NCBI GenBank assembly: GCA_947631625.1
Contig: CANRMA010000007.1
Location: 1 to 64,000, forward strand
DNA: 64,000 nucleotides
Direction of reading: 5' to 3'
From: an uncultured Lachnospiraceae bacterium
GTDB lineage: Bacteria; Bacillota; Clostridia; Lachnospirales; Lachnospiraceae
Made by a program: the position numbers and the translations under genes. The first letter of the stretch is position 1. Every line of letters begins with the position of its first letter. This document shows positions 541 to 63,173 of this stretch, piece after piece. A model generated the notes under the pieces. The model worked only from the letters and a program-made list of their open reading frames with translations. It had not been told where the DNA came from and did not search any database.

Positions 541-748
541 AGTTAATTGCGAAACTATGATATACGTTATCAGGATTGTGCAGATTTAACAAAACCTTTG
601 CAGGCCGCTTTCGCTGCGTTGAGCCTCGCAACGGTGCTAAGGCTGCAAAATACGCAGCCTAAGAACCGGCGGGCTCAGAGCGCCTGCAATGGTATTTGTT
701 AAATCTGTACAATCAATATACGTTGAGAGAGAGTTTCGCAAATGCCTA
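541..748 (+). repeat. Palindromic MITE-like element, copy A (full length)
   Basis: Full-length copy of about 208 bp. The left terminus TTAATTGCGAAAC and right terminus GTTTCGCAAATGCC are inverted repeats. The arms contain complementary blocks (GATTGTGCAGATTTAAC left, GTTAAATCTGTACAATC right) and TTGCAGGC/GCCTGCAA. The centre folds as GGCTGC-AAAATAC-GCAGCC. The copy is bounded by an exact 14-bp direct repeat, ATAACATATAAAAT, at 527-540 and 749-762, consistent with a target-site duplication. It carries no transposase. Its right end lies 27 nt before the start of the S66 peptidase gene. Confidence 0.85.
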
Positions 749-775
749 ATAACATATAAAATTAAGAAAGGATGA

Positions 776-1810
776 ATGCGGCAAAAAATGAGATATCCGG
801 AATTTTTACAACAGAACGGGACAATAGGCTTCGTGGCGCCCTCTTTTGGGTGTGCCTCGCAGCCTTATAAGAGTGCGTTTTTAAACGCGCAGAAGAAATG
901 GGAGAAAGACGGGTTCAGGCTTAGGCTTGGACCTAATTGTTATGTGGAAAAAGGAATAGGCATAAGCAATACGCCGCGTCTTTGCGCAAAGGAGCTTGTG
1001 GAGTTTTACTGTGATGAAGAAAGCGACTGCCTGATTTCCTGCGGCGGCGGAGAACTGATGTGCGAAATTTTGGATTATGTCGATTTTGACAGGATAAAGA
1101 AAGCGCCGCCCAAGTGGTATATGGGATATTCGGACAATACCAATATGACTTTTCTGCTCACTACCATATGCGATACAGCGGCAATCTATGGGCCCTGCGC
1201 GGCAGCTTTTGGCATGGAGCCCGCGCATCCGGCGATAGACGACGCTATGGCGCTGCTTTGCGGGAAGAAACTTGAATTTGAAGGCTATGATAAGTGGGAA
1301 AAAGAAGCTTTAAAAAACGAAGAAAATCCGCTTGCGCCTTACAATGTGACGGAGCCCTCAAAAGTCAGATGTTTTCCCGATGAAAAAGTGGCTTTTGGCG
1401 GCAGGCTGCTTGGCGGCTGTATGGACTGTCTGGTGAATCTGCTTGGCACGAAATATGATAACACCTGTAATTTTATTGAAAAATATAAAGACGACGGCAT
1501 ACTCTGGTTTTTGGAGGCGTGTGATCTGAATGTAATGGGAATACGCCGGGCAATGTGGCAAATGGAACATGCGGGTTGGTTTAAGCATTGCAGCGGTTTT
1601 ATCATAGGCAGGCCGTTATGTCATGGTCAGGAGCTTATGGGACTTGACCAGTACCGGGCTGTGTATGAGGTGGTTAAAAAATATGACGTTCCCGTAGTTA
1701 TGGATGCGGACATAGGACATATTCCGCCCATGATGCCGCTCATAAGCGGAAGCATGGCACGCATACAGGCGCAGGACGGAAAATACAGCGTGAGCATGGA
1801 GCTTAGATAG
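776..1810 (+). CDS. LD-carboxypeptidase / MccF-like serine peptidase (family S66)
   Basis: 344 residues, the usual length for S66 peptidases, with no signal peptide, so cytosolic. The family cleaves the L,D bond of tetrapeptides from recycled peptidoglycan or, in MccF, inactivates microcin C-type nucleotide peptides. The start reads YPEFLQQNGTIGFVAPSFG, typical of the family. The catalytic set is visible: nucleophile Ser119 in GYSDNT, Glu247 in FLEACD and His315 in DIGHIPPMMPL. AGAAAGG lies 5 nt before ATG 776; an in-frame ATG at 788 is too far from it. The closest relatives by feel are the MccF-like clostridial branch, so a self-immunity role is possible, but no microcin genes are nearby. 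It is transcribed alone behind repeat copy A. Confidence 0.9.
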   Translation: MRQKMRYPEFLQQNGTIGFVAPSFGCASQPYKSAFLNAQKKWEKDGFRLRLGPNCYVEKGIGISNTPRLCAKELVEFYCDEESDCLISCGGGELMCEILDYVDFDRIKKAPPKWYMGYSDNTNMTFLLTTICDTAAIYGPCAAAFGMEPAHPAIDDAMALLCGKKLEFEGYDKWEKEALKNEENPLAPYNVTEPSKVRCFPDEKVAFGGRLLGGCMDCLVNLLGTKYDNTCNFIEKYKDDGILWFLEACDLNVMGIRRAMWQMEHAGWFKHCSGFIIGRPLCHGQELMGLDQYRAVYEVVKKYDVPVVMDADIGHIPPMMPLISGSMARIQAQDGKYSVSMELR

Positions 1811-1920
1811 ATAACGGCAAACTGATATATTTTAATCAAACTTTCGTTTATGAAAATGAAAGTCGCAATATACTTTATATTTATATAATAGTTGTATATT
1901 ATTGATTGGGGTAAATTAAT

Positions 1921-2032
1921 AAGATAGTGTAAATATAAAATAGTGCAAATATAAGATAGTGCAAATATAAGATAGTGCAAATATAAGATAGTGCAAATAT
2001 AAGATAGCGCAAATATAAGATAGTGTAAATTA
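1921..2032. repeat. 16-bp tandem array, 7 units
   Basis: Seven head-to-tail units of AAGATAGTGCAAATAT with a few substitutions, exact 16-bp period, ending in degenerate copies near 2060. There are no unique spacers between units. It lies between the S66 gene and the GH5 gene, just upstream of the GH5 promoter candidate. The antisense frame 1627-2082 (LYLHYLIFALSYICTI repeats) is only a translation of this array. Confidence 0.9.
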
Positions 2033-2076
2033 TAAGATGTAAATTTAGAGGGTGTATTATAGGGTGTAAATTTATA

Positions 2077-2105
2077 GTGCAATAAGAATTGGAATTGTGT
2101 ATAAT
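2077..2105 (+). promoter_or_regulatory. Possible sigma-A promoter for the GH5 gene
   Basis: A perfect -10 TATAAT at 2100-2105 has a poor -35 (GTGCAA, 2077-2082) at 17-nt spacing. It sits about 70 nt before the GH5 start codon and directly after the 16-bp tandem array. Confidence 0.3.
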
Positions 2106-2173
2106 GTTTTTATGATCATATTTAGTTGCAGAGACTCTAAAAATGTATATTGAAAAGTATTGGGGGGAATGAC

Positions 2174-3196
2174 ATGGACTTAAAACGCGGGCTTAATTTC
2201 GGCGGATATTTGTCGCAGTGCGAGCACACATTGGAGCATTATCGGACTTTTATATCTGAGGAAGATGTGCAAAAAGTCGCAGGTTGGGGCTTTGACCATA
2301 TAAGGCTGCCTGTGGATTATGAGGTATTGGAGTGTGAGGACGGTTCCGAATATGAAGAGGGACTTGCCTTTGTGGACAATTTTATGGATTGGTGTAAGAA
2401 CGCGGGCATTGATGTAGTGTTGGATCTGCATAAGGCTTACGGCTATGATTTTAATGATGCCGGCGATTCTGATAAGAATAATCTTTTTACGGATGAAGGG
2501 CTGAAGCAGAGATTTATAAATCTGTGGGGGCGTATCGCAAGGCGTTATGGCGGCAGGGATCATGTGGCCTTTGAACTTTTAAACGAGGTGGTAGAGGAGG
2601 AAAATGCTCTGCTCTGGAATGAACTGATCGGCATGGCTATGAAAGAGATCAGAAAATACGCGCCTGACACGCCTGTCATATATGGCGGTATACAGTGGAA
2701 CAGCGCCAGAACGCTTAAACTTTTGGATAAGCCTGCGGATAAAAACGTGATCTATACATTTCATATGTATGAGCCTCTTATTTTTACTCATCAGAAAGCG
2801 TACTGGGTGCCGAATATGCCTGAGGATATGGATGTTTTTTATCCCTCTGACATGGACTATTACAGGGAAATATCGAAAATAATAGGCTATAAGGGCAAGG
2901 ACGTGGTTGTGGCCCGCAGCAAAAGTATGGGGCCTGAATTTTTGACCGAAATGGTCAAAGAGGCGGTGGACGCGGCCGGGGCGGCAGGCGTAAGGCTGTA
3001 CTGCGGTGAATTTGGAGTAATAGACAGGGCTCCGGTCGAAGACACGCTCAGGTGGTTTGAGGATATAATGAAGGTGTTTGCAGAGTATGACATACACTTC
3101 GCTGTGTGGACTTATAAAAATATGGATTTCGGGCTGACTGAAGAACACTATGACAGCGTCAGGGAGCCGCTTATCAAGATGCTTACCGCAAAATGA
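2174..3196 (+). CDS. Cytosolic glycoside hydrolase family 5 (endoglucanase-like)
   Basis: 340 residues forming a single GH5 (beta/alpha)8 barrel that probably hydrolyses beta-1,4-linked gluco- or manno-oligosaccharides. The N-terminus starts straight into the barrel (LKRGLNFGGYLSQ). The acid/base pair is Asn137-Glu138 (LLNEVVEE) and the nucleophile Glu279 (YCGEFGV). The start is set at ATG 2174, 6 nt after GGGGGGA; an in-frame upstream start at 2150 has no such site. There is no signal peptide, membrane segment or carbohydrate-binding module, so it should act inside the cell on imported oligosaccharides, matching the cytosolic phosphorylase and GH3 elsewhere in the window. Exact substrate is not readable from sequence. 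Confidence 0.9.
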   Translation: MDLKRGLNFGGYLSQCEHTLEHYRTFISEEDVQKVAGWGFDHIRLPVDYEVLECEDGSEYEEGLAFVDNFMDWCKNAGIDVVLDLHKAYGYDFNDAGDSDKNNLFTDEGLKQRFINLWGRIARRYGGRDHVAFELLNEVVEEENALLWNELIGMAMKEIRKYAPDTPVIYGGIQWNSARTLKLLDKPADKNVIYTFHMYEPLIFTHQKAYWVPNMPEDMDVFYPSDMDYYREISKIIGYKGKDVVVARSKSMGPEFLTEMVKEAVDAAGAAGVRLYCGEFGVIDRAPVEDTLRWFEDIMKVFAEYDIHFAVWTYKNMDFGLTEEHYDSVREPLIKMLTAK

Positions 3197-3246
3197 TGAT
3201 CTGAAAAGATTACAGATAAATGACAAAACATATCGGGGGAGTTTTT

Positions 3247-3420
3247 ATGATACCTAATGATCCGTTTATGCTTCTTAGTTTTGTAAATCTTAAGCTTAGA
3301 GATTTTTATTCAAGTCTCGAGTCCATGTGTGACGATATGGATATCGACAGGGAAGAGATTGTCGGCAAACTGTCCAAGATTGACCGCTATTACGATAAGG
3401 ATAAGAACCAATTTGTGTAG
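3247..3420 (+). CDS. DUF4250 family small protein
   Basis: 57 residues, the usual size of DUF4250 (pattern PNDPFMLLSFVNLKLRD ... CDD...DREE). The start is ATG 3247 after CGGGGGA (spacing 6), which fixes it against an upstream in-frame ATG at 3220. It is a charged, soluble small protein of unknown function, common in clostridia. It follows the GH5 gene by 50 nt and could share its transcript. Confidence 0.85.
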   Translation: MIPNDPFMLLSFVNLKLRDFYSSLESMCDDMDIDREEIVGKLSKIDRYYDKDKNQFV

Positions 3421-3448
3421 TGTTGAAAACATGTTCAGGTTCGGCGCC

Positions 3449-3534
3449 CGGGCACGCAGCGCGAGCGCGCCTGCAAAGGTTTTGTTAAATCCGTACAATA
3501 CAGGTAACGTATATCATAGTTTCGCAATTGCCTA
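3449..3534 (-). repeat. Palindromic element, copy B (half element, inverted)
   Basis: The reverse complement of this stretch reads as the left terminus of the family (TAGGCAATTGCGAAAC, then ATGATATACGTTACC, ATTGTACGGATTTAAC, AAAACCTTTGCAGGC). It contains the left arm and part of the centre; the other arm is missing. The outer end lies 32 nt before the start of the lipoprotein gene at 3567. Confidence 0.8.
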
Positions 3535-3566
3535 TGTGAAATAATAATAAAAAGGATCGTAAAGCT

Positions 3567-4793
3567 ATGAAAATGAAGGTTGTTAAAAGATTATGCATGG
3601 CATGTCTGATGTTTATGTTGGGCGGCTTATGTGCCTGTGCGAAAGCAGACAGCGTAAATACGGAAAGTACAAATGTGATAAATGATGCTGAGAATAACAA
3701 TCAGGATAACGATGAGAATGACGCTGAGGCCAACGGCGGCGCACGGAAAGAAAATGACATAAATGAAGACGGTGATAAATCCGAAGCGGCAGGAAGTATT
3801 GATATCACGAATACGGTAACAGACGGAAACTATGATTACGAACAGGCCGAAACAGGAGAAGACGCTGACGGCAAAAAAAGCGCTGCAGGAATTAATGCTG
3901 ACAGCGCTGAGAACGACGCAGACGGCACGGCGGAAGAATTTTCATATGCGAAACTTAAGACGCTTAAATTTTCTTTTCTTAGTGGAGCAGGCGGTTGGAG
4001 CACGGATCTTGATATAAGCGAAGACGGATCTTTTGCGGGACTTTATCATGATTCGGATATGGGTTCAACCGGAAACGGCTATCCGAACGGAACGATATAC
4101 TGGTGTAATTTTACGGGAAAATTCGGGGAACTGGAAAAGGTTGACGATCTGACCTATAAGACGCAGATAGAGGACATTCAGTATATAAATGAGCCGGGAA
4201 CGAGTGAGATATTGGACGGAACCTTATATGAATATACGGAAGTATACGGGTTGGAAGATGCGAAGGATATTATTTTTTATCTGCCCGGAACGAAGATAAA
4301 GGACCTTCCCGAAGGTTATCTTTCATGGGTGCAGATGACTTTAAATGATCTGAGCAGCGGTGAGCAGATGGACGAGCTTCCGTATGTCGGCCTGTATAAT
4401 GAAAATAAGGAAGAAGGCTTTTACAGTGTGAATTACGCCGAGAAGTATCTTGAAGATCTCGCATACACTGCGGACGTTGCAAAAGGCTATAATATCACAC
4501 TTGAAAACGAAAATCTTACGAAAGACGAGTATGAACAAAATGCCAAGGCTCTCTATGATCTGTGGGATTACAGTCTTAATCAGTTGTGGAGCGTGTTAAA
4601 GATCGTGCTTCCTTATGATGAGATGAATAAGCTTACGGAAGAACAGCGTAAATGGATAGCCGATAAACAAAAAGTTATGGATAAGGCGGAATCGGACAGT
4701 CCGGACTCCTCAAAAGCAGCGGCATACAGCTATATTAAAGGAGCGGAATATACGCAAGAAAGAGTGTATGAACTTGTGGAAATTATAAAATGA
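3567..4793 (+). CDS. Lipoprotein with C-terminal LprI-like (DUF1311) domain
   Basis: 408 residues. A lipoprotein signal (basic MKMKVVKR, hydrophobic stretch, L-C-A-C with Cys24) predicts anchoring to the outer face of the membrane. Residues about 25-125 are a low-complexity acidic/Asn-rich linker. A middle domain of about 150 residues is unassigned. The last 110 residues (LYDLWDYSLNQLWSVL ... LTEEQRKWIADKQ) match the DUF1311/LprI pattern; this family includes lysozyme-inhibitor-like proteins, so a role at the cell wall is possible but inferred. RBS AAAGGATC precedes ATG 3567; an ATG two codons on is an alternative. It sits behind repeat copy B. Confidence 0.75.
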   Translation: MKMKVVKRLCMACLMFMLGGLCACAKADSVNTESTNVINDAENNNQDNDENDAEANGGARKENDINEDGDKSEAAGSIDITNTVTDGNYDYEQAETGEDADGKKSAAGINADSAENDADGTAEEFSYAKLKTLKFSFLSGAGGWSTDLDISEDGSFAGLYHDSDMGSTGNGYPNGTIYWCNFTGKFGELEKVDDLTYKTQIEDIQYINEPGTSEILDGTLYEYTEVYGLEDAKDIIFYLPGTKIKDLPEGYLSWVQMTLNDLSSGEQMDELPYVGLYNENKEEGFYSVNYAEKYLEDLAYTADVAKGYNITLENENLTKDEYEQNAKALYDLWDYSLNQLWSVLKIVLPYDEMNKLTEEQRKWIADKQKVMDKAESDSPDSSKAAAYSYIKGAEYTQERVYELVEIIK

Positions 4794-4866
4794 CCGCAAT
4801 TATAAAATGATTGCATTTCATAAGCTGACGCGGATATATTAAAAATGTATGCAGGAGAACGCTAAG

Positions 4867-6745: not shown

Positions 6746-6851
6746 ACATTCGCATTGATCTGTATAATAAGGTTATGTTAAGGTTTGACTGCTTTTTGGT
6801 TAAGAAATCTCTGTTAAGATGTTTTTAAGATGTAAATACAACTGATCCGGG

Positions 6852-7052
6852 TAATTGCGAAACTATGATTTACGTTATCGGGATTGTACAAATTTAACAA
6901 AACCTTGCAGGCACGCTTGCGCTGCATTGAGCGCAGTAGCGGCGCTAAGCTCGAAAATACCTCGCTAAGCGCCGACGCGCTCAGAGCGCCTGCAATGGTG
7001 TTTGTTAAATCTGTACAATCAATATACGTTGAGAGAGTTTCGCAAATGCCTG
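6852..7052 (+). repeat. Palindromic element, copy C (full length)
   Basis: Termini TAATTGCGAAAC and GTTTCGCAAATGCCTG; arms ATTGTACAAATTTAAC and GTTAAATCTGTACAAT. The central hairpin differs from other copies (GGCGCT-A-AGC ... GCT-A-AGCGCC) yet keeps the stem and the AAAATAC loop. Imperfect direct repeats flank it: ACTGATC at 6841-6847 and ACTGCTC from 7053. The right end is about 26 nt before the DUF975 gene. The plus frame 6884-7099 inside it is not considered coding. Confidence 0.85.
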
Positions 7053-7077
7053 ACTGCTCAACAGAAAGGAGTACATC

Positions 7078-7920
7078 ATGTGGAATAGAAAAGACTTAAA
7101 ACAAAAGGCCAAAGAGGCTCTCAGACGAAACTATTGGAAGGCAGTCCTGGTGTCATTTATGCTTTTGATCATAGGAGATTCTTATGTTCCTGCGGCGACG
7201 GCGTCGGGAGGGGGAAACAGAGGCAGTACGGAATATACCGAGGAGAATGCGGCTGATGACAAAACAGGCGTTGACGTAGAAGTGGAAACATATGTTCGAT
7301 CGGACAAAGGAGAATATCTTGAGACCGATAATGTGAATGACGGACATATCCGTGTTATTATTATAGCGGCGTTGATTGTTGTTTTTATGGCCGTGTTTGT
7401 ACTGGCGGTATTATTTGACGCATTTTTGTTTGATCCGCTGATAGTAGGGGGAAAGCGTTTCATGTTAAAATGTATTGAAGATAAAAGCGATGTTGCGGAA
7501 GTGACATATATGTTCGATCATTCATATTTAAACTGCGTAAAGACGATGTTCTTCCGTGAACTGCATATATTTTTGTGGTGTCTGCTGTTTATAATTCCCG
7601 GCATATACAAAAAATATCAGTATTATATGGTGGAATACATTCTTGCCTTAAATCCGGATATGCCTTATAAAGAAGTTCTTGATCTGAGCGCTGAGATGAT
7701 GGAAGGACATAAGTGGAATGCATTTGTGCTGGATCTGTCTTTTATCGGTTGGCATATACTTGGTTTGATGACATGCGGATTATTGGAGATATTTTATGTG
7801 CAGCCCTACTCAAAACTGACACGCGCGTCACTTTTTTGCGAACTTGAAAAAAACAATGAAGAAAAAACGGCGGCAGTAACAGAAGTAAACAGTTTTATAA
7901 GCAACAGTTTTAATAGTTAA
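7078..7920 (+). CDS. DUF975 family integral membrane protein
   Basis: 280 residues. The N-terminus (LKQKAKEALRRNYWKAVLVSF) is the DUF975 signature, followed by a first membrane segment, an external charged loop (about 42-90) and three or more further helices (about 91-120, 160-180, 220-245). The C-terminal part (FIIPGIYKKYQYYMVEY ... YKEVLDLSAEMMEGHKW) is also typical. Function of the family is unknown; members lie in the cytoplasmic membrane of clostridia. Start ATG 7078 follows AGAAAGGAG with normal spacing. Its stop codon (7918-7920) lies inside repeat copy D, so the last codons may have been altered by that insertion. The preceding leader is occupied by copy C. Confidence 0.85.
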   Translation: MWNRKDLKQKAKEALRRNYWKAVLVSFMLLIIGDSYVPAATASGGGNRGSTEYTEENAADDKTGVDVEVETYVRSDKGEYLETDNVNDGHIRVIIIAALIVVFMAVFVLAVLFDAFLFDPLIVGGKRFMLKCIEDKSDVAEVTYMFDHSYLNCVKTMFFRELHIFLWCLLFIIPGIYKKYQYYMVEYILALNPDMPYKEVLDLSAEMMEGHKWNAFVLDLSFIGWHILGLMTCGLLEIFYVQPYSKLTRASLFCELEKNNEEKTAAVTEVNSFISNSFNS

Positions 7921-8123
7921 TTGCGAAACTATGATTTACGTTATCGGTATTGTACAAATTTAACAAAACCCTTGCAGGCACGCTTGCGCTGCATTGAGTC
8001 TCGCAGCGGTACTAAAGCTGCAAAATACGCAGCTTAAGTGCCGGCGGCCTCAGAGCGCCTGCAATGGTGTTTGTTAAATCTGTACAATCAATATACGTTG
8101 AGGGATAGTTTCGCAATCACCTG
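7913..8123 (+). repeat. Palindromic element, copy D (full length)
   Basis: Termini AGTTAATTGCGAAAC and GTTTCGCAATCACCTG, arms as in the family, centre AAGCTGC-AAAATAC-GCAGCTT. A 9-bp direct repeat ACAGTTTTA is present at 7904-7912 and 8124-8132. The left end supplies the stop codon of the DUF975 gene, and the right end is 27 nt before the response regulator start. Confidence 0.85.
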
Positions 8124-8150
8124 ACAGTTTTATAAAAGTGAGGGAGTAAG

Positions 8151-8837
8151 ATGTCATATAAGATTTTGATTGTGGACGATGAAGCGGAAATACGTGATCT
8201 GCTCAGGCTTTATTTGGAAAAGGACGGGTATGAGACAGAGGAAGCGGGCGACGGCGCGGAGGCATTGGAAATACTTGGCAGGATGGAAGCGGATCTTGTG
8301 ATACTGGACATAATGATGCCGGGAATTGACGGATACCGTGTGCTTAAGAACATCAGGGAGAAAAATAACATACCCGTTATAATCCTTTCGGCCAAAAGCG
8401 ATGACGGGGATAAGATACTCGGTCTTGACCTCGGCGCGGATGATTATATAACCAAACCTTTTAAGCCGCTTGAAGCCGTGGCCAGGGTAAATTCCAATAT
8501 ACGAAGGTTTTATTCGCTTGGCGGCGGTAAGCAGAAGCAGCCGGCTATGTTGTGTGTGCGGGATCTTAAGTTGGACCTGAACGCCTGCATTTTGAATAAA
8601 GGCGATAAAAAAATAGAGCTTACCTCTGTGGAATTTAAGATAATGAAGCTTTTTATGGAAAATCCGGGCAGGGTTTTTACCAAGCAGCAGATATTTGAGC
8701 AGGGATGGGAAGATGAGTATTATGCCGCCGATAACAATATAATGGTGTGTATCAGCAAGCTTCGCGCCAAACTTGGCGGAAATGCAAACGAATATATTAA
8801 GACCATACGCGGTCTGGGCTATCGCCTTGAGGAGTAG
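8151..8837 (+). CDS. OmpR/VanR-family response regulator
   Basis: 228 residues. Receiver domain 1-120 with acidic pocket VDDEAE, phosphoacceptor Asp53 (LVILDIMMPGIDG) and Lys in YITKPFKP. Winged-helix output domain about 130-228 (LTSVEFKIMKLF ... DNNIMVCISKLRAKLG ... IRGLGYRLEE). It acts as a DNA-binding regulator activated by the sensor kinase encoded 106 nt downstream. The start follows GTGAGGGAG. Full length for the family. Regulated genes are not identifiable; the neighbouring polysaccharide deacetylase is a reasonable candidate in view of VanR-like systems. Confidence 0.95.
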   Translation: MSYKILIVDDEAEIRDLLRLYLEKDGYETEEAGDGAEALEILGRMEADLVILDIMMPGIDGYRVLKNIREKNNIPVIILSAKSDDGDKILGLDLGADDYITKPFKPLEAVARVNSNIRRFYSLGGGKQKQPAMLCVRDLKLDLNACILNKGDKKIELTSVEFKIMKLFMENPGRVFTKQQIFEQGWEDEYYAADNNIMVCISKLRAKLGGNANEYIKTIRGLGYRLEE

Positions 8838-10946: not shown

Positions 10947-10949
10947 TAA

Positions 10950-11083: not shown

Positions 11084-14000
11084 TTGAAAAAAGCTAAAAA
11101 ACACAGTAACAGGTTAATGGCAGTGCTTTTAAGTATGGCTATGATATTAACGTCCATACTGCCGGGCATTACTGTTTATGCGAATGAGCCGACAGGCGAA
11201 GCCGTGGTTTCGGAGTCGGAGCAGGCGGCGGACGGTGATGAAACGTTGGATAAAAACACTGCAGGAGATTCCGCTTCGGATGACGGGACCGCAGAAGAAG
11301 AGGTCTCGGGCACCGAAAGCGCGGATGGGACAGGCTCACAAGAGGGAGACTCGCAGGAGACTGAAACCGGAAGTCAGGATGGCGAAGACCCGGTCGGATC
11401 CGGTTCGGAAGATGAGGTCCCCGGGACCGAAAACTCCGGCGATGCTGTCTCTGACGGTATAGAGGCAGGTGAAGAAGGCGAAGGACCCTCAGAAGATGAA
11501 GGGCTTTCGGAAGATGAAGAACTTTTAGAAGATGAAGGACTTTTAGAAGGTGAAGAACTTTCGGAAGATGAAGAACTTTCGGAGGGTGAGGAACTTTCGG
11601 AAGAAGAAGCTGCAGCCAAGACCAAGACAATTACGTCAAATGTAAAGGTTGATGGCTTTTCGGCTGTCGGCGGATGGAATGAAAGCATCTATGCCGAGAT
11701 AAGCGGAGTAAAAGATACCGACGTCAGCGAAGTAAGCTATTCAGGAACCATGAACGGAAAACTTTCAGGCGACGACTTTAAATATCTTGTAAGAGAGAGC
11801 GGGGGGGGCGTTAGGATCGATATTCCGGGTCTTAAAGCAGGTACTTATACTCTTACGGTCAAAGTCGGAGTCAGCACACTGACCGGATCCGATATCAAGG
11901 TTACCGCATATGACCGTTCGGGTTTTGCCCATTTTGACCCGAAAAGCAGCAATCACAATTATTCTGCGGGCGTCGGCGCCTATAAAAACGACGGTACATT
12001 AAAAGATAATGCGATCATCCTTTATGTTACGGATGAGAATAAAAATGATGTAGAGGTTCAGAGTAAAGACGGTACTAAGGTTAAAGGTATCGGTAATATC
12101 TTAAACTCAGTAGGACAGAATACCGGCAGCGGGAAAACGAGCAACGGCGGCACAAAGCCTAATACTAATAATGATATCATTAAGAAGCTTGCCAAGGACG
12201 GCACACCGCTTGTAGTCAGATTTATAGGCACGGTATCCGAAACAGGGCTTTATGAAAGGGGTACTTATAATGCAGCATCGGAAGGTCTTATCGACGGACT
12301 TACGGCTTACAATTCAACGGATTACGGCGGTTCCGTAGGCGATAACGGACATATGGCGCGTATCCAGTCAGGTAAAGATATCACGCTTGAAGGCATTGGT
12401 TATGATGCCACAATAGACGGTTGGGGCTTTCATTATATAGCCCAGTCTTCAGACCCTGATCTGGGAAAGAGTTTTGAAGTAAGGAACCTTACATTTATCA
12501 ATACGCCCGAAGACGCCGTAGGTATGGAAGGACAGCAGGTAAGCGCTAATACAAGTTCCAAATTAAGCGCAAGCGTTGAACATTGTTGGATTCATAACAA
12601 TGAATTGTACTGTCCGCATATTTCGAGTCCGGCGGAGTCGGACAAGGGTGAAGGCGACGGTTCGGTTGATTTTAAACGTGGGCAGTATTTTACATGCAGC
12701 TATAACTATTTTGACAGCTGCCACAAGACCAACCTTGTAGGTTCTGCAGACACCAGTCTTCAGTTTAACCTGACATATCATCACAATTACTGGTATATGT
12801 GTAAGGCAAGGGGACCTCTTACCCGTAACGCCAACGTACATATGTATAACAATGTATTTGATATGCAGACTGACTATGCGATGAATACGAGAGCCAATGC
12901 ATATATATTCTCGGAGTATAACATGTTTTATGCATGTAAGAGCCCTCAGGCGGTCGAAAGCGGCGCTATCAAGAGTTATAATGACTCAATTGCCAGCGTG
13001 ATATGGAATAAGGGTGAACCGGGAACCGTCGTTACAAATAAAAGTGATTATGTACCGAATAACTGTCAGTTCCAGGCGGAAGGGATCAAGTATGATAAGT
13101 TTGATACTGATTCTTCTCTTTCTTATATTCCGTCAGGTAATTATGAACTTCAGACTGATTTTACCGATCTCAGACAGGTCATAGCCGCGCAGACCGGCGC
13201 GCAGGAGAGGACTCCGATGTCTGCCGGGAGTATCGGCAAGAGTGAATATTCGGTGATTTCAAGATATGTAAGCAGTCCGGTTGATGTAAATATCAACGGT
13301 GGCAGTGAGACGACCCTTACACCCGGGAAGATATCCAAAACCGGCTATGCGTTTAAGGTAAATGGTGAATTTGATGTGGAGATAGAGTACGATTCTGCTG
13401 CCAAGGTCAGCGGCGTGCTTGTAAATGACGAAGGGGCGAACTTATGTTCGGGAAGCGGTACCGTGACAAATCTGCCTGAGGGCAGTTACATGATACAGCC
13501 GGAGACTTTCCAACCCGGCGATCCTGCAAAGGGAACAATAGCCGTATTTAAAGAAACAAATGTTAAGAGTATTAAGATCGCTCCCCATGATCCTAATAAA
13601 CATTATCATACATGGGAGTTGGATAAGGATGCTTCAACTGCTGCAACATGTACCGGGGGAGGCAAAAATGTATATAAATGTTCCGATCCTTCCTGTGACG
13701 ACAAGGCGGCGGTAAAAGAAGAAACAGTTCCGGCGTTGGGACATTCCTATGGAGCATGGGTGGTCGATAAGGCTGCAACCGATACGGAAGAAGGTTCAAA
13801 GCATCGTGAGTGTACAAGATGCGGTGATAAGCAGACGGAAACAATACCTGTCGGCGGCGGAAGCGGAAGCGGAACCGGCGGCACAGGCGGCGGAGTTACT
13901 GTCGCGGGAGATTATGTATTGTATTTTGAAGGCATGAAAGAGAATGATCCGGATGATTTCTTTACGGTTAATGGAAGCTACTCAAATTCAAAAGGTTCCG

Positions 14001-26483: not shown

Positions 26484-26518
26484 TTTAATTGTTGTCTCCT
26501 TATTATTTTGTTTCGTAA

Positions 26519-26637
26519 CAGGCAATTGCGAAACGCTGATTTACATCTTTGAGATTGTGCAGATTTAACAAAACCCTTGCAGGCCGCTTTCGCTGCGTTG
26601 AACGATATACGTTGAGAGAGTGTTTCGAAATTGCCTA
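26519..26637 (+). repeat. Palindromic element, copy E (internally deleted)
   Basis: Both termini are intact, CAGGCAATTGCGAAAC and GTTTCGAAATTGCCTA, but the centre and most of the right arm are lost between about 26603 and 26604. Flanking direct repeat TTGTTTCGTAA (26508-26518) and TTGTTTAGTAA (26638-26648), 10 of 11 identical. This copy defines the element ends best. It lies in the leader of the minus-strand DUF3892 gene. Confidence 0.85.
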
Positions 26638-26794
26638 TTGTTTAGTAAATAGCTATATTTATATTACCGGGCGGCAGGCATGGAATATAGCTAGTCGGTT
26701 AAATTTATGAAATATATTATGGCAGGATGTGGGTTGAATTATTCATTGATAATATACTTATTGCGCTAAATTAGGAATAACTTTATTTACAGCC

Positions 26795-26961
26795 AAGCTA
26801 TGGCAGTTTGTAGCCAAATTTTTGCACTTCACAACTAAGCTTTTACACTTTATAGCAAGCTTCTACACTTGGCAGTCAAATACCTACACTTTACAGCCAA
26901 GCTTTTACACTTGTCAGGCAAGTTTCTGCATTTTACAACATAAATTTTACATTTTACAACA
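26795..26961. repeat. Degenerate 21-bp tandem array, 8 units
   Basis: About eight units near AAGCTTTTACACTTTACAGC plus one base, period 21 bp (one unit 20), diverged by point changes. Located about 90 bp before the GHKL kinase gene in otherwise featureless AT-rich DNA (26649-27052). A 21-bp period equals two DNA turns, so repeated sites would lie on one face. Confidence 0.75.
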
Positions 26962-30709: not shown

Positions 30710-33061
30710 GTGAAGGAACAAAAAAGAGGGATGATCAAACAGAATAAAGTGTATCCGTCAAAGGGGATAACGGTGGATCTGTCTTCTTTTTATGATGAGG
30801 AAGACCGCAGGCATACGCTTTTTCTTAAGGGCGCGCTTGTATATCTGGTCGTAATGGGCGCGATCGGGTGTTTTCTGTCTGCGCTTGATATGGAGTATTC
30901 CGCGCCTGTACTGAATGTATCCGTTTTTATCTTTTCCATGTTCAGTGTGTCGCTTTACTATAATAAGGTGTGGGAAAAGTGTGGATATCTCATATTGCTG
31001 CTGCTTCTTATATGGACGGGAAGCGCTCTGGGGAATTATGTAAACAGCGGCTTTTATGCTATAGCGAATGCGATATCGGAACGCGCGGCAGTATTTTTTG
31101 ACACAAGCGCAATGAGAAGTTACGGCGAACAGGTGGGCAACAGGTATGCGGCCGTGACGGTCTCGATGTGCTTTATAGGCTGTGTGTGCTGCGTTATTGC
31201 CAATATACTTATTTCCCGCAGGATGCGCTATAGAATGGCGGCTTTTATAAGTGTGGGACTGCTGCTCATACCGATATATTTGGAGCGGGAGCCGGATATA
31301 ATATACGCGGTTATGCTTATTACGGGCATTATTTCGGTTTACATAATAAAAGAGGGCGGCCATTATAAACTGACGTCGGACAATAAAGTGTATGAATTTG
31401 AGCACAAAGAGCGAAAGATCAGTTATGTGTATTCGGCTAAGACAATGGCTCAGGTGATGGCGGTGGTATTGACGATAAACGTAATCATTATCGGTTTATC
31501 GTATATTTTTTATCCTGAGGAAGAATATTCTTATGGAGGGAGAATGAGCGGCTTAAAAGAAAGCACTTTGGATACGGTCGAAAACATTTCCATACTGGGT
31601 ATCATGGGCTTATTTAATTTTTATCCGAGCAATGGCGGACTGACTAACGGCACTCTGGGCGGAGTAAGTTCGGTAAGGCTGGACCTTGAGACGGACCTGA
31701 CTGTCGAGTTTGCGCCGTATTCGGACGAGAGGATCTATTTAAAAACTTTTGAAGGAGGAACCTATAACCCTTACGGTAACAGTTGGAGCAGACTGACCGA
31801 CGCAAACGGCAGGATTATGATCGAAAAAGACGAAGACGCCGCAAGACTTAAGGAAAACTATGAAGACGGCGCGGCTTATTCCGCCAAAGGAGTCATCAAA
31901 ATAAAAAATGTCGCGGCGGCGGCAGGCGTATATCTGCCTTATTATTCCGAAGATACCGACAAGATAATATATCCGGGCCGGATTGAAGAATATGTATTTT
32001 ATCCCCGCCTGTACGGGGGCGTGGCGGCGCAGGAGAGTCCTGAGGCCGACGATATCGAAACAGAACAGAAAAGTCCTGAGGCCACAGAGCGATGGCTTGA
32101 TGTTCCGGAGCAGAACAGGGAAGTGATAGCGGAATTTGTAAAAGAAGCGGGGCTTAAGCCCGGAGACCCGGACGAAGCGGTCAGAGGGCTTGCGTCGTAT
32201 TATCAGGAAAACATACCTTACACGCTGCGGCCGGGAATGACCCCTTACAGGAAAGATTTTGTGAATTATTTTCTGTCGGAAAATAAGAGGGGCTACTGCG
32301 CTCATTTTGCCAGCGCCGCCACGCTGATATTCAGATATCTGGGTATTCCGGCAAGATATGTGGAGGGCTACGCGATCGATCCGGCCGATATAGCGGGGCG
32401 GGGAGAGATAATAGAGGACGCCGTGTATGAGGATTATTACGACGGCTATTCGCCGCTTATGACAAATGCGGTCGTGTCTGTGGACGCGACGGACGCCAAC
32501 GCCCATGCATGGGTGGAGATTTATGATGAAAAAGAAGGTTGGATAGTAGCGGACGTAACGCCCGTCTCATACGAAGAAGAGCCCGGCGAGAGCCTTTGGC
32601 AGCGGCTTATGGATTTCCTCGGCGGAGGAACCGACGATGATGCGGAAGCGGGAAGCGACAACGAAGATGACGCCGCCACAGGGCTTGACGAACGTACCAG
32701 ACAGCTGTATGCAAGGATATTGGCAGGACTGGCCGTAATATTCACGATCGCATTTACAGGTCGCATTATCATAAAAAAAGCCATAGCTTTAAATAATTAC
32801 AGAAAACTTGACTTAAACGGCAGACTGATAGTCAGATACCGGAATTATATAGAGAAAATCGCAGGAAGACAAAAAGAATTGACTAATATGGTCAATTACG
32901 AAGAACAGATATCCTGGCTTATTTCTAACGGATACTGGAAAATTGACCAAAGCAAAGCAAAAGAATACAGGGCAATACTTGAAAAAGCGGGCTTTTCCAA
33001 CGAAACCGTGTCGGAAGAAGAATTTAAAAAATTATTGCGCTTGTTGACTGTGCGGATTTAA
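30710..33061 (+). CDS. Membrane transglutaminase-like protein (TgpA type)
   Basis: 783 residues. Five or six helices at about 38-215 and one near 245; a large extracytoplasmic domain with a papain-like transglutaminase core: Cys530 (KRGYCAHFASA), His599 (NAHAWVEI), Asp615 (IVADVTP), so the triad is complete. A further helix lies at about 665-685 with a cytosolic DUF4129-like tail. GTG 30710 follows GGAGG by 5 nt. Last gene of the MoxR-DUF58 operon. Its final codons and stop (ATT TAA, 33056-33061) lie in repeat copy F, so the native C-terminus may have been changed. Confidence 0.9.
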   Translation: MKEQKRGMIKQNKVYPSKGITVDLSSFYDEEDRRHTLFLKGALVYLVVMGAIGCFLSALDMEYSAPVLNVSVFIFSMFSVSLYYNKVWEKCGYLILLLLLIWTGSALGNYVNSGFYAIANAISERAAVFFDTSAMRSYGEQVGNRYAAVTVSMCFIGCVCCVIANILISRRMRYRMAAFISVGLLLIPIYLEREPDIIYAVMLITGIISVYIIKEGGHYKLTSDNKVYEFEHKERKISYVYSAKTMAQVMAVVLTINVIIIGLSYIFYPEEEYSYGGRMSGLKESTLDTVENISILGIMGLFNFYPSNGGLTNGTLGGVSSVRLDLETDLTVEFAPYSDERIYLKTFEGGTYNPYGNSWSRLTDANGRIMIEKDEDAARLKENYEDGAAYSAKGVIKIKNVAAAAGVYLPYYSEDTDKIIYPGRIEEYVFYPRLYGGVAAQESPEADDIETEQKSPEATERWLDVPEQNREVIAEFVKEAGLKPGDPDEAVRGLASYYQENIPYTLRPGMTPYRKDFVNYFLSENKRGYCAHFASAATLIFRYLGIPARYVEGYAIDPADIAGRGEIIEDAVYEDYYDGYSPLMTNAVVSVDATDANAHAWVEIYDEKEGWIVADVTPVSYEEEPGESLWQRLMDFLGGGTDDDAEAGSDNEDDAATGLDERTRQLYARILAGLAVIFTIAFTGRIIIKKAIALNNYRKLDLNGRLIVRYRNYIEKIAGRQKELTNMVNYEEQISWLISNGYWKIDQSKAKEYRAILEKAGFSNETVSEEEFKKLLRLLTVRI

Positions 33062-33210
33062 CAAAACCCTTGCAGGCCGCTTTCGCTGCATTGAGCCACG
33101 CAACGGTGCTAAGGCTGCAAAATACGCAGCCTAAGAACCGGCGGGCTCAGAGCGCCTGCAAGGGTTTTGTTAAATCTGCACAGTCAATATACGTTAAATG
33201 CGTTTTGCCT
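33026..33210 (+). repeat. Palindromic element, copy F (eroded ends)
   Basis: Arms (TGTGCGGATTTAAC and GTTAAATCTGCACAG), TTGCAGGC/GCCTGCAA and the centre GGCTGC-AAAATAC-GCAGCC match copy A closely, but the termini are shortened (ATTGCGC on the left, GCGTTTTGCCTG on the right). GAATTT occurs at 33020-33025 and 33211-33216. It lies between convergent genes and supplies the stop codon of the transglutaminase gene. The plus frame 33070-33327 is a translation of it. Confidence 0.75.
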
Positions 33211-51764: not shown

Positions 51765-54700
51765 ATGGTGAAACACAAATTGCTTAAGCGTGTGCTTCCT
51801 ATGCTGTTAAGCGCATCTATGATGTTCCAGACGGTATCAGGCACAGCGCTCGCAGCAGAGATTGCGCCGGAAGCCGTATCGGCGCAGGAACAAAGTGATG
51901 AAACCGTTGCGACGTCCGAAGACGACGCGCAGGACGCAGTTGAAGCCGAAACTGCCGACGGCGCGCAGGACGCGGTTGAAACCGAAACTGCCGACGGCTC
52001 GCAGGACGCAGTTGAAGCCGAAACTGCCGATGGCTCACAGGACACCGCAGATGTCACTGATGCAGATGACGCAGACGGTAATGACAGCGCAACGGCAGAC
52101 AATACAGAAGATGCAGACGCCGCAGATGCAGACGCGGTTCTGGATGAAGAAGCGTCGGGTGGAGATTCACAGGGGGATCCGAGCCCGAAATCTGAGAATG
52201 AAGCGGCAAAGCTTCCCCAGGCTGTCATAAGTCTGGATAAAGAGGCGCTTAAGGAAGCAATTTCATACACGAATTATAAATATGATGAGATTGCGGGAAC
52301 ACTTACGGCGGATTATCATAGCATTAAGGATATTGAAGACCTTACGGAAAATATCAGTGGAGTCTTAAATAGTGAAGTTTATTCCAATTATTCATATAAA
52401 TATCCGCTCCAAGCTTATTATACAGACAGCGAAGGAAGCGAGATACCGCTTAATAAGAGCGATGACCTTAAGTACACATGGAAGGTAAAAGGCGCTGACG
52501 ACGCTTATACTGATATCAAAGCTACGGAAGGCGAGAAGGCGCAGCCTGATGCGGCAGGTTCGTACAGACTGGTCATTTCGGCAGATGCTAAAGAAGGATC
52601 ATATACGGCAGCTGATCCGGTAAACCTTGATCTGGAGATCAAGAAGTCTGTTATTACGGCGGAAGTTACGAATTTAAGCTTTGATTCTGCTGATAGCGCA
52701 GCAGAGGTAAAGAAAGCAAACGAGATCATAACGTTTTATGTAAACGGTGAAGAAGTTGACAGAGGAGAATATGAAGGCGAGGGAGAAGCGCAGAAGGTTG
52801 TATATAAAGGCGACTATATTTCAGGCGCGTCTCTTAATGTTGTAAATGCGGACGACGCTTCCAAGCTTAGCGACGCCGATCTTCTGAAAAAAGGCGTAAA
52901 CTACGTCATCGAGACGGAAGTTACCTTGAAAGATGATGTTAAGGCAAACTATGAAGCAGCCAAAGACTCTTTCAGGATAAGTTTGACCGGCTCAGTCAAT
53001 ACAACCATAGAAATTACATATAAAGATGAAGTATTGGTTGACGGCGCGGCTCCTGAGGTGATTTTTACCAAGACATATAACGGAGAGCCCGTAAATGCGG
53101 AAACTGACGTAAAAACCAAGTACACGGCCAAAGTGATATATGGCGAAGGCGATAATAAGAAAGAGGTTGCCGGAGCCGAAATCACGGGAACATGGTGTGT
53201 TCAGAATGGATTTTATTCAGGCTATTCGGATATAGATTATGAACCGACCGATGCAGGAGAGTACTATTACAAATTGAGTTATACTGACGCGGATAAGGCA
53301 TATGGCGATGCAGACCCCGTTTATCTGAAAGTCGTTATAAATAAGGTTTCTCTTGCAATCGAGCCTGTAATTGAAAATACTGAATTTTATTCAGGCATTA
53401 CTGCTGAAAACGTAGTAAAATACCTGGAAGCCAAAGTTTATGACGTTAGCGGTGAAACACCTGCCGAAAAAACGGTTGGTGAAAATTTCTGGGGCGCATA
53501 TAACGGCAAACCTTATGTACCTGTGTTTAAAGTGCAGAAAGGTACAAAAGCCGCAGCTGCAGAGTCTGTCACAACATGGGAAGATGTTGATGATGAGGAG
53601 AGGCTGACAATCAGCGCAGACGGTAATGTTTCTTACAGAGTTGTATTTGCGGATGAATTCGCGGCTTATAGTAAAGGCTATGACGGTCAAGATCGTAATG
53701 ATACACAGGATGTTGATTCCGTTAATTATTCTTTCAAGAATTATGAGGTTGTGACGACCGACGATATTAAGGATAAATATTCCAAAGCAATAACATTAAA
53801 AGCTGCTACGGAAGTTAAGATAAACGTTGACGGTCTGCTTAATGAAGGCGCAGGCGCAACGCTTGAGAACCCTGTCATTAAGACCTATGACGGTAAAGGG
53901 ATCTATACTTCAATAGCTGATTATAAGAAGGCGACAGTTACTAAAGCTGACGGCGCGGAAGCAACGTTTGCCAACGGCGAGCTTAAGTATGAGTGGCAGT
54001 CTAATTCCAGTGTTACGCTAGAGGAAGGAAAGCCTGTTGAAAATGATATTTGGAGAAGGGCAAACTATAATAATGTAGATATATGCGTAGCCCCTATGAA
54101 TGTAGGTGTATACAGACTTGCGATATCCTATACTGATGACACGAACGAGTCATACGCCGCTGAGCCTGCCTATGTATATTATGTAGTAAAACCTCAGGAT
54201 GTAAGAATAGTAATTAACGCTGAAACCGAGGCGTATGCCAAGGCAGATGCTCAGGTAGAGTCAACTTATGAGTTTATTCATAAATTACAAAATTCTAATG
54301 CAGAAGATAAGGCAACGTATTTTAGCCTTGAGGTATATCCCGTAACCGTTACGGAAGATGCGGAAGGTAATGCAAATGTTGTAAAAGGAGAAGCTCCTAT
54401 TGCAGAACTTACGGAAGCAGTGCGGGAAGAGTATTCAGGCGATTTGTACTACGATCCGGGATACTATTTCTATGTAGAGAAAAAATCAACTGTAGAAGGT
54501 AAGGATGTCTGGACCGGGATAGATACTGATTATGAGATTTATTTTGAAGTTAATGCCGAATACAGATTGGGCGTTGCTAATATTAATTACGACAGGAATT
54601 ATAATTTTGGCCGTAAGTATGATAAGTATAATAACATAGTAAATTATGACTATTATGCTAATGAGACGTCGGCCATTACCGTTAAAGCCACGGAAGGCAA

Positions 54701-58097: not shown

Positions 58098-58140
58098 TGA
58101 GCTGCAGATAAGCTTGAAGCATAGTAAGATATCAAATAAA

Positions 58141-58181
58141 AACAGCATTGAAAAGGGAAACCTTGACAATGCTGTTTTTTA
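58141..58181 (+). terminator. Terminator of the giant surface protein gene
   Basis: AACAGCATTG (58141-58150) pairs with CAATGCTGTT (58167-58176), inner AAGG/CCTT, then TTTT. Strong. Confidence 0.9.
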
Positions 58182-58274
58182 TGCGTTTTTAATGCATTTT
58201 TAATGCGTTTTAACAAACCATCTTCATTCCTGCAGTACGAGAATAGTAACATGCAGATTACAATGCAGATTAAC

Positions 58275-58554
58275 GCAGTATAACATGTATATTAAAATGC
58301 AGATTAAAAGCAGCATAATATGTAGGTCACAATACATATTAAGCACAGTATAACATTTAGATCACAATACAGATTAAAAGCAGTATAACATGTATATTAC
58401 AATACAGATTAAAAGCAGCATAACATGTATATTACAATACAGATTAAAAGCAGCATAACATGTATATTAAAATGCAGATTAAAAGCAGCATAACATGTAG
58501 ACCACAATGCAGATTAAAAGCAGTATAACATATAGATTAAAATATAGTTTAATA
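58275..58554. repeat. 35-bp tandem array, 8 units
   Basis: Units begin with GCAG(C/T)ATAACATGTATATT at 58275, 58310, 58345, 58380, 58415, 58450, 58485 and 58520: an exact 35-bp period with scattered substitutions. Partial units precede it from about 58250. No variable spacers, so not CRISPR. It lies before the Rpn-like gene. Confidence 0.92.
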
Positions 58555-58644
58555 GCTATATTGCTTTAAAGTAACATTGATGATAAAATAAATAGTACGG
58601 ATGGAGAGAATACGTTGTCGATTTTGTACAAGGAGGAATGAAAC

Positions 58645-59841: not shown

Positions 59842-59883
59842 CAGTCGAAGGACTCGTGAAGAAAAGAATAAAACAGGCTTAAT

Positions 59884-59914
59884 AAAAGGTGCGCAGTTTG
59901 TTGCGCACCTTTTT
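59884..59914. terminator. Bidirectional terminator between convergent genes
   Basis: AAAAGGTGCGCA (59884-59895), loop GTTTGT, TGCGCACCTTTT (59902-59913). 12-bp stem with A-run and T-run, so it works for both the Rpn-like gene and the chemoreceptor gene. Confidence 0.9.
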
Positions 59915-59932
59915 GACTGCTTTAGCTGCAAG

Positions 59933-61336: not shown

Positions 61337-61610
61337 TGATAATCCCCCTTGTTCGTATACAAAAGTTTACAATACCTATAATTTAGCATAACATATTTTT
61401 GTAAAAGATTAAACATTTTTATTAATATTTACATCAAAATTTACATCCAAGTTTTTGATATTTATAAAAAGATCAAAGTGAAAAGGTTAAACTCGAAAGT
61501 ATCAGAAAATGTTCATACATATTTGCAGAGAGAGGGGGGAGTGTGATAGAATATAAAAAGGATAAAACAGGCTGTTCCGTCAATATATAAAATAAGGAGC
61601 GATTTGCGAC

Positions 61611-62942
61611 ATGACGGGCGAGAATGTGAGGAATGCATTTATGAAAAAATCAATGAGAGTTATATTAACCCTTATAATAACACTAGTTATTATAACGCTT
61701 GCGGCGTGTGTTGAGCAAAAAGCTCAGGCTGCGCCCAAGGCTCAGGCGACGCAGCAGACAGGCGGTTCTGAACCGGAAGTTTTTATGCAGGATAAAATGG
61801 AAGTGCATTTCATAGATGTAGGTCAGGGAGATTCCACGCTGATAAAATGCGGCGATCATTCTATGCTGATAGACACGGGAGACGATACCAAGGGAACGGC
61901 AATTCAGAATTATTTAAAAAAGCAGTCTGTGAAAAAGTTGGATTATCTGATACTGACTCATCCGGATTCGGATCATATCGGAGGCGCGCCTGTTATTATT
62001 ACCAAATTTGAGATAAATAAAGTTTTTATTTCAAATTATGAAAAAGACAATAAAACTTATCGGAAGCTTATACAGGCGCTAGATGATAAAAAGCTGAGTT
62101 ATTCCACGCCAAAGGTGGGCTATGAGTTTAGTCTGGGCTCTGCAGCGGTTACCATACTTGCGCCTGATAAGGAGTATGATAACCCGAATGACGCTTCAAT
62201 CGCGCTGATAGTGAAGAACGGGGACAATAAGTTTTTATTTACGGGAGACGCTGAAGCAGAGGCCGAAAAAGACATTTCGAACAGCGGGTTTGACATAACT
62301 GCCGATGTGTATAAGGTGGGGCATCATGGAAGCAGAACTTCCACTTCGGCGGAGTTTATGCGTAAGGTTAAACCAAAGTACGCCGTAATAAGCTGTGCGG
62401 AGGGAAACTCATACGGGCATCCCCACGCGGAAACTTTAAATACGTTAAGGGCAAGGGGCGTTAAGCTGTACAGGACGGACGAGGAAGGAAGTATAATAGC
62501 CACATCTGACGGCAAAGATATTACATTCAATGTGCCGCCGTCTGACACATGGAACTCCGGAGAACCGACCGAAAGCAGCGCCAAGAGCTCCGGGGAATCG
62601 ACCGGAAGCAGCGCCAAGAGCTCTGGGGAATCGACCGGAAGCAGCGCCAAGAGCTCCGGGGAACCGACCGGAAGCAGCGCGGCTGCGGAATCTAAGACTG
62701 CGCAGGCGGGGGCGTCGGGAACAACGACTGTTCGTGACAGCGCGGCAGAAGTAAAAAAATCTCAGGTTCAGGAGAATGCGTCGGATACGTCTGAAATTAC
62801 ATATATTCTTAATGTAAAGACGAAGAAATTCCACAGACCTTCCTGCAGCAGTCTGCCGACCACTAACCGTAAAGACACGTCGGAAAGCAGAGACAGTGTG
62901 ATCGCGCAGGGATATGAGCCATGCAAAAGGTGTAACCCATAA
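61611..62942 (+). CDS. ComEC-type metallo-beta-lactamase lipoprotein
   Basis: 443 residues. A lipobox TLAAC and hydrophobic stretch point to a surface lipoprotein; counted from the internal ATG 61641 the Cys is residue 23, a standard length, so 61641 may be the true start (AGGA 9 nt upstream) although AAGGAG also lies 13 nt before ATG 61611. MBL core: VGQGDSTLI, THPDSDHIGG, FLFTGDAE, KVGHHGSRTSTS, AEGNSYGHPH, as in the ComEC/Rec2 nuclease-like domain. A linker of SSAKSSGEST repeats (33-nt DNA array, about 62560-62680) precedes a Cys-rich C-terminal domain (FHRPSCSS ... GYEPCKRCNP) that resembles Ada-type zinc sites. A secreted nuclease role is inferred. Confidence 0.85.
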   Translation: MTGENVRNAFMKKSMRVILTLIITLVIITLAACVEQKAQAAPKAQATQQTGGSEPEVFMQDKMEVHFIDVGQGDSTLIKCGDHSMLIDTGDDTKGTAIQNYLKKQSVKKLDYLILTHPDSDHIGGAPVIITKFEINKVFISNYEKDNKTYRKLIQALDDKKLSYSTPKVGYEFSLGSAAVTILAPDKEYDNPNDASIALIVKNGDNKFLFTGDAEAEAEKDISNSGFDITADVYKVGHHGSRTSTSAEFMRKVKPKYAVISCAEGNSYGHPHAETLNTLRARGVKLYRTDEEGSIIATSDGKDITFNVPPSDTWNSGEPTESSAKSSGESTGSSAKSSGESTGSSAKSSGEPTGSSAAAESKTAQAGASGTTTVRDSAAEVKKSQVQENASDTSEITYILNVKTKKFHRPSCSSLPTTNRKDTSESRDSVIAQGYEPCKRCNP

Positions 62943-62960
62943 AAAATATTTAATAACAAA

Positions 62961-63173
62961 TGAAGGTAATTGCAAAATTATGATTTACGTTATCGAGATT
63001 GTACAAATTTAACAAAACCTTACAGGCACGCTTGCGCTGCATTGAGTCTCGCAGCGGTACTAAAGCTGCAAAATACGCAGCTTAAGTGCCGGCGGCCTCA
63101 GAGCGCCTGCAATGGTGTTTGTTAAATCTGTACAATCAATATACGTTGAGAACGAGTTTTGCAATTATTTATG
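62961..63173 (+). repeat. Palindromic element, copy G (full length)
   Basis: Nearly identical to copy D in the centre (AAGCTGC-AAAATAC-GCAGCTT) and arms; termini GGTAATTGCAAAATTATG and GAGTTTTGCAATTATT have decayed a little. An 8-bp direct repeat ATAACAAA lies at 62953-62960 and 63174-63181. The right end is about 30 nt before the flavoprotein start. Confidence 0.85.

Follow-up and report, generated by a model that had tools for sequence, protein, structure and literature searches.

Miniature inverted-repeat elements of Lachnospiraceae that insert at a fixed distance from Shine-Dalgarno-like motifs, carry a covarying core and are probably moved by an IS1182-like transposase

How a mobile element can reach a high copy number in a compact genome without breaking genes is the question raised by a near-palindromic repeat of about 205 bp in the genome of an uncultured Lachnospiraceae bacterium. 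Seven copies of this repeat were confirmed in a stretch of 64,000 nucleotides (assembly GCA_947631625.1, contig CANRMA010000007.1, positions 1 to 64,000; hereafter the window), and we followed the repeat through the rest of the genome, a 2.67-Mb draft that is 81% complete, and through related genomes. The answer, which we regard as very probable, is that the repeats are miniature inverted-repeat transposable elements (MITEs) moved in trans by a transposon of 1.75 kb, that they land next to Shine-Dalgarno-like motifs, and that their interior, a predicted three-way junction, is held by compensatory mutation.

The repeats are a MITE family with true target duplications. They are about 205 bp long, occur in many copies, have inverted terminal repeats and share their ends with the 1.75-kb transposon, all of which are criteria of a MITE. 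An initial annotation of the window had described seven copies, all of which are present at base level, and had reported flanking direct repeats (14/14 bases in copy A, 9/9 in D, 8/8 in G, 10/11 in E and 6/7 in C), which our base-by-base reading reproduces. Genome-wide, the terminus is matched with at most two mismatches 187 times, versus 14 times for a reversed control pattern, and the structured core is matched at least 70 times at E<=1e-3, with 59 matches above 60 bits; the core count is a lower bound, with 150 of 439 candidates scored. Forty-four MITE copies were extracted from the genome and three without recognisable termini were dropped. Of the 41 that remain, 15 lie between exact direct repeats of 8 bp or longer (0.05% for shuffled left-right flank pairs) and 31 between near-exact repeats of 9 bp or longer (6.1% when shuffled). 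The copies in the window are listed below with their duplications, the motifs beside them and the structured core as placed by a core-only model (R2).

Positions 541-748, plus strand: copy A, full length, with termini at 541-555 and 733-747
Positions 527-540 and 749-762: target duplications of copy A, 14/14
Positions 599-698, minus strand: structured core of copy A, the GNRA-loop strand being the minus strand
Positions 766-771: Shine-Dalgarno-like GAAAGG downstream of copy A, with ATG at 776
Positions ~3440-3534, minus strand: copy B, a truncated inverted half with its terminus at 3519-3533
Positions 3550-3556: AAAAGGA beside copy B, then ATG at 3567
Positions 6849-7052, plus strand: copy C, full length, with duplications at 6841-6847 and 7053-7059 (6/7)
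Positions 6906-7004, minus strand: structured core of copy C
Positions 7064-7071: GAAAGGAG downstream of copy C, then ATG at 7078
Positions 7915-8123, plus strand: copy D, full length, with duplications at 7904-7912 and 8124-8132 (9/9), between a DUF975 gene and a response-regulator gene
Positions 7973-8073, minus strand: structured core of copy D
Positions 8140-8146: GAGGGAG beside copy D, then ATG at 8151
Positions 26520-26637, plus strand: copy E, internally deleted with both termini present, with duplications at 26508-26518 and 26638-26648 (10/11)
Positions 26496-26502: CTCCTTA, reverse Shine-Dalgarno-like, in the flank of copy E
Positions 33026-33210, plus strand: copy F, termini not recognisable, structured interior at 33045-33185
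Positions 33071-33170, minus strand: structured core of copy F
Positions 62964-63171, plus strand: copy G, full length, with duplications at 62953-62960 and 63174-63181 (8/8)
Positions 63021-63121, minus strand: structured core of copy G
Positions 63190-63196: AAGGAGG downstream of copy G, then ATG at 63204

Empty sites were sought at orthologous loci, which were located through the product of the DUF975 gene that lies between copies C and D. This protein is matched in 71 of the 77 genomes of the genus, that of the window included, and the 29 best loci were read out of the 70 other genomes. At site D the intergenic gap is 230 bp in the window genome and -32 to 98 bp in 28 of the 29 orthologous loci, one of which (L209, with a 70-bp gap) holds a terminus-like remnant; the remaining orthologue has a 172-bp gap without termini. 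Site C could be measured in 24 of the 29 loci. It spans 414 bp in the window genome and 104-244 bp without termini in 22 of the 24, the exceptions being L202, with 840 bp and no termini, and L187, which has a separate MITE with a different interior just upstream of the same gene. Copies C and D are absent, then, at most of the orthologous loci read, which is the comparison that the initial annotation had proposed. Its view that the elements are MITE-like and non-autonomous is borne out by the duplications, the empty sites and the short internal frames (the longest at most 51 amino acids in five window copies, an upper bound). The size of the family had been underestimated, and both the Shine-Dalgarno distance rule and the conserved structured core had been missed. 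The MITE has no match in the plasmid and phage collections. As a separate observation, seven loci (L006, L008, L011, L018, L021, L032 and L039) show a second terminus directly after the MITE target duplication, as though a further insertion had used the duplicated site.

The initial annotation had proposed a search for a transposase gene bounded by the same termini; such a gene is found, in related genomes. The exact terminus is present in 43 of the 77 genomes of the genus, several times at contig ends, and the partner was traced by reading inward from unpaired termini, one of which, in L077, leads into an open frame of 485 amino acids. Within the genus, eight complete copies of the transposon measure 1755-1765 bp from terminus to terminus; those at the named loci of relatives are mostly 1.73-1.81 kb long. 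Its predicted transposase contains the DUF772 domain (PF05598; 45.8 bits versus a Pfam cut-off of 23.1), and the residues D147, D288 and E427, invariant in 19 transposase sequences, are candidates for a catalytic DDE triad; the DDE_Tnp_1 match is weak and under the Pfam cut-off. Among the NCBIfam models IS1182 fits best, with 68 bits. Since the curated cut-off requires 270 bits, the protein is called IS1182-like here and is not placed in the IS1182 family. IS5 models are matched as well in the Pfam and NCBIfam scans, and the Mutator-like transposase family gave no match in them at E<=0.001. The predicted structure was poor, with a mean predicted local distance difference test score of 51, and was not used. 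At E<=1e-20 the transposase is matched in 12 of the 77 genomes of the genus. The named carriers, drawn from the best 80 of 228 relatives, include Roseburia inulinivorans, Ruminococcus torques, Blautia massiliensis, Mediterraneibacter massiliensis, Lacrimispora xylanisolvens, Butyrivibrio and a metagenome-assembled genome of Acetobacterium. The transposase also has matches in five plasmid records, two of which, from Roseburia and Butyrivibrio, cover 80% or more of its length, and none among the phage records.

From 91 transposase matches we removed 18 not bounded by both ends and 4 with a repeated flank, which leaves 69 transposon copies; the flanks are long enough for a duplication test in 65 of these and for a start-codon test in 64. 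The transposon ends are 16 bp long, T-AGGYNNTTGCGAAAC, with T as the base preceding the ends in 69 of 69 copies and A as the base following in 68 of 69. They are also asymmetric, position 6 being T at the transposase-start end (68/69) and A at the other end (66/69). Exact duplications of at least 8 bp stand at 44 of the 65 copies, versus 0.16% for shuffled flanks.

Transposon and MITEs alike come to lie at a fixed spacing from Shine-Dalgarno-like motifs. We scored GGAG, AAAGG or AAGGA, read away from the element and 12-24 bp outside its end. Such a motif is seen at the transposase-start end of 61 of the 69 transposons versus 4 of 65 at the other end, and it starts 17.6 +/- 2.2 bp from the transposon in 57 of 64. 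The distance to the start codon has a standard deviation of 13, with a start found in 51 of 64 targets by a rough call, namely an open reading frame (ORF) of at least 60 amino acids beginning 12-69 bp from the element. A clear duplication and a motif can both be read at 39 transposon copies; 27 of these have exactly 5 bp between the two, and the duplication length varies from 9 to 13 bp with a mode of 11. It is therefore the motif-proximal cut that is anchored. The MITEs follow the same rule: in the window genome the motif stands on exactly one side in 31 of 41 copies (14 left, 17 right) and on both sides in none, and in other species it is found for 32 of 36 (two other genera supplied six of these 36). 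In the wrong sense it is seen in 1 of 41 and 2 of 36, respectively.

Could this pattern arise from ordinary MITEs without any target preference within AT-rich intergenic DNA, with a Shine-Dalgarno sequence near by chance in a genome of closely packed genes? The insertion targets are indeed AT-rich and apparently intergenic. However, random intergenic positions of the window have the motif, on either side, in 12.6% of cases, versus 76% of the MITEs and, at one end, 88% of the transposons; in addition, the distance is fixed, and the motif stands on one side and in one sense only. GAAAGG in particular is found in 37 of 64 transposon targets (58%). Among 314 leaders preceding ORFs of 200 or more amino acids, 63 have it (20%); this background was taken over the same 26 bases and includes transposase genes and rough start calls. 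Chance landing is already contradicted by these results, and we give it hardly any credence. Beside these counts we record a lone terminus at positions 266-280 of L074 (G057:C24), which stands directly before GGGAAAGGAG and a start codon, with the remainder of the element missing.

The main argument for one enzyme acting on both elements is that the transposon and the MITEs share their ends, their kind of duplication and this unusual distance rule, and we infer that the IS1182-like transposase would move the MITEs. Consistent with this, a 191-bp element in L043 (G042:C31, 1820-2010) has ends that resemble the transposon well beyond 16 bp, as judged by eye, and is apparently a direct internal deletion of an autonomous copy. 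The core is not part of the transposon, since R1, a covariance model of the inner 140 positions of the MITE, has no match at E<=0.01 in the 80 named transposon loci (626 kb). In L050 (G055:C11, 1899-2043) there is also a 145-bp element with the same ends and an unrelated hairpin interior.

Several observations weigh against our reading. The similarity between MITE and transposon is limited to about 16 bp at the ends, the outermost T and A are retained in just 30 and 28 of the 41 MITEs, and the window genome, at its 81% completeness, holds a transposase remnant only, the last 98 residues beside a terminus. The motif is missing at the expected distance in 8 of 69 transposons, in 10 of 41 MITEs here and in 4 of 36 elsewhere, and an ORF of the required kind follows just 51 of the 64 transposon targets. 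The enrichment of GAAAGG is smaller when only motif-bearing leaders are compared (37 of 57 targets versus 63 of 173). Most MITEs have both ends of one type, and of those with one end of each, 15 have the motif beside the transposase-start-type end and 5 beside the opposite end, so that control of orientation in the MITEs is weak. The short shared ends and the lack of an intact transposase copy in the window genome would also fit a different transposase that moves the MITEs and has the same ends by coincidence, with the IS1182-like element as a bystander. Such a coincidence would have to extend to the kind of duplication, the motif and its distance, which are alike in both elements, and the 191-bp element of L043 also speaks against it; we consider this quite improbable.

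On the reading that we prefer, the mechanism would be as follows. The transposase supplied by autonomous copies would bind the 16-bp ends of transposon and MITE alike and would read the Shine-Dalgarno-like motif, mostly GAAAGG, as DNA. It would then cut about 5 bp from the motif and, on the distal side, 9-13 bp further out; the element would be joined at these cuts, and repair would yield AT-rich target duplications of variable length. Because the cut would lie upstream of the Shine-Dalgarno sequence, the element would come to sit upstream of it and the gene would keep its ribosome-binding site intact. The autonomous transposon inserts in one orientation, with its transposase-start end towards the motif, and the MITEs in both. 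Sparing the ribosome-binding site may keep insertion cheap for the host, and a low cost of this kind may be the reason why scores of copies are present per genome.

What the elements carry is a second matter. The MITE interior is a predicted three-way-junction fold that is kept by compensatory change across genera of the Lachnospiraceae. The fold of copy A has a computed energy of -102.9 kcal/mol versus -54.6 +/- 4.4 for shuffled sequences. An alignment of 16 MITEs of nine species, with a mean column identity of 60%, has double changes in 18 of 47 predicted pairs and 94.7% of cells paired, and its covariation score is 0.338 versus at most 0.065 for slid controls. In 33 cores from eight genera, which were hand-chosen among those fitting the hairpin pattern and so are not a random sample of the diversity, double changes are seen at 25 of 30 pairs, the paired cells make up 93.3% and the score is 0.622 versus at most 0.133 for slid controls.

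The covariation might, however, have been kept by correction of quasi-palindromes at the DNA level, rather than by selection on an RNA fold. Quasi-palindrome correction is a template switching between arms; the elements are near-palindromic, and the process would give double changes without selection. This is a serious rival. Correction should nevertheless erase mismatches, yet a U-U mismatch, a bulged U and a GNRA loop are each present in 33 of the 33 chosen cores, and of 100 core copies 97 could be parsed with a hairpin pattern that demanded GC on either side of the loop, 95 of them with a mini-hairpin loop that is GNRA on one and the same strand. The invariant mismatch and loop weaken this alternative, which we judge unlikely while taking it seriously, and they are consistent with a fold that may act as RNA.

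A conserved fold ahead of genes would also be expected of cis-regulatory leader RNAs, riboswitch-like or attenuator-like, that were placed there to regulate and not by mobility. In the window, a start codon follows 26-33 bp after the end of five of the seven copies, and in another genus, g18, the core was found by eye at the same place in two species in five pairs (L252/L261, L222/L260, L254/L264, L257/L263 and L258/L265). Against such an origin stand the target duplications, the empty orthologous sites, the many similar copies, the mutually unrelated genes downstream of the window copies and the orientation of the fold. Of 31 window-genome copies, 14 have the GNRA loop on the strand of the gene and 17 on the other; elsewhere the counts are 10 and 16 for 26 of the 36 elements. 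With no clear preference for either strand, a classical leader regulator is unlikely, and we give the leader-RNA origin as a whole very little weight. The same lack of bias argues against a role of the fold in the leader of that gene and is, to this extent, a further point against our own reading; the core may serve the spread of the element itself, or may be an insulating domain that works either way round.

The core is distributed more widely than the MITE that carries it in the window. The model R1 has a match in 74 of the 77 genomes of the genus; in a sample of 295 genomes over the order it has one in 29, which come from 13 genera and all belong to the same family. The model R2 matches 30 of these 295, that is 30 of 48 sampled Lachnospiraceae and 0 of 247 others, and 4 of 299 genomes of the phylum, all Lachnospiraceae; in the order and phylum samples 11 or 13 candidates were scored per genome under strict filters, and copy numbers are lower bounds. 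Outside the genus the common part is a core of about 100 nt, and the outer parts differ. GCGAAAC ends are also present in G364 and in G361, where one copy (L219) is without them. Copies of G355 (L268-L271 and L230) have the same core between very different ends of the type GGGGCTGTAAAAAA, and no clear target duplication was seen by eye around them. In genus g18 there are no common ends, and each locus has its own self-complementary arms. In two loci of that genus, L227 and L220, short GGGACGG-rich repeats lie beside the core, and these may resemble RAYT-associated palindromes. Rfam gave no match to the whole window at gathering score and none to copy A at E<=1, and for 20 loci at E<=1 it gave just three microRNA matches far under their gathering scores. 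Tentatively, and with more doubt than confidence, we propose that the core is a new structured-RNA class of Lachnospiraceae and itself a unit of selection, which would be packaged between the ends of different transposons (GCGAAAC in the genus of the window and two others, GGGGCTGTAAAAAA in another genus) and delivered by a Shine-Dalgarno-reading transposase into transcribed leaders, where its strand could be copied into RNA without harm to the host gene.

Other repeats in the window are direct repeats at 58237-58586, 1903-2046 and 26786-26961, with spacings of 35, 16 and 21 bp, respectively, and at 11473-11616, 51921-52043 and 62552-62680, within long open frames, with spacings of 18, 36 and 33 bp.

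RUP of Streptococcus pneumoniae is regarded as a MITE, and we know of no Shine-Dalgarno distance rule for either BOX or RUP. Like the MITEs described here, BOX and RUP are small interspersed chromosomal repeats (PMC3049150); the core of our MITE, for its part, matches no Rfam family. The likeness to the IS1182 family, whose elements come closest by protein model, lies in the DUF772 domain above its cut-off, in IS1182 as the best NCBIfam match and in the existence of MITE derivatives, since derivatives assigned to IS1182 elements, for example those for ISMac2, have been tabulated (PMC3852290); the transposase here differs in reaching 68 bits versus the 270 required. IS1272, which others have put in the IS1182 family, replaces stem-loops, a behaviour that contrasts with canonical transposition and target duplications (PMC5678879), whereas the element here makes duplications of 9-13 bp beside Shine-Dalgarno-like motifs. 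In behaviour the TnGBS/ISLre2/ISKra4 group, with its Mutator-like transposases, comes nearest: its members keep a fixed distance from an expression signal, inserting 15-17 bp upstream of sigma-A promoters, with an orientation attributed to asymmetry of the ends (PMC3942029). The signal in that group is the -35 region of the promoter, whereas here it is a Shine-Dalgarno-like motif. In the open-licence PubMed Central literature searched, no description of Shine-Dalgarno-directed insertion sequences or of this repeat was recognised, which is not proof of absence from print; the distance rule and the covarying fold appear undescribed in that literature.

If our reading is true, the use of the Shine-Dalgarno sequence as a landing mark for a transposase would be a second solution to the problem of high copy number in a compact genome, beside that of the promoter-targeting TnGBS/ISLre2 group. 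The covarying core, which members of a common gut family carry in many copies each and for which Rfam has no match, is in its turn a candidate structured RNA of the Lachnospiraceae.

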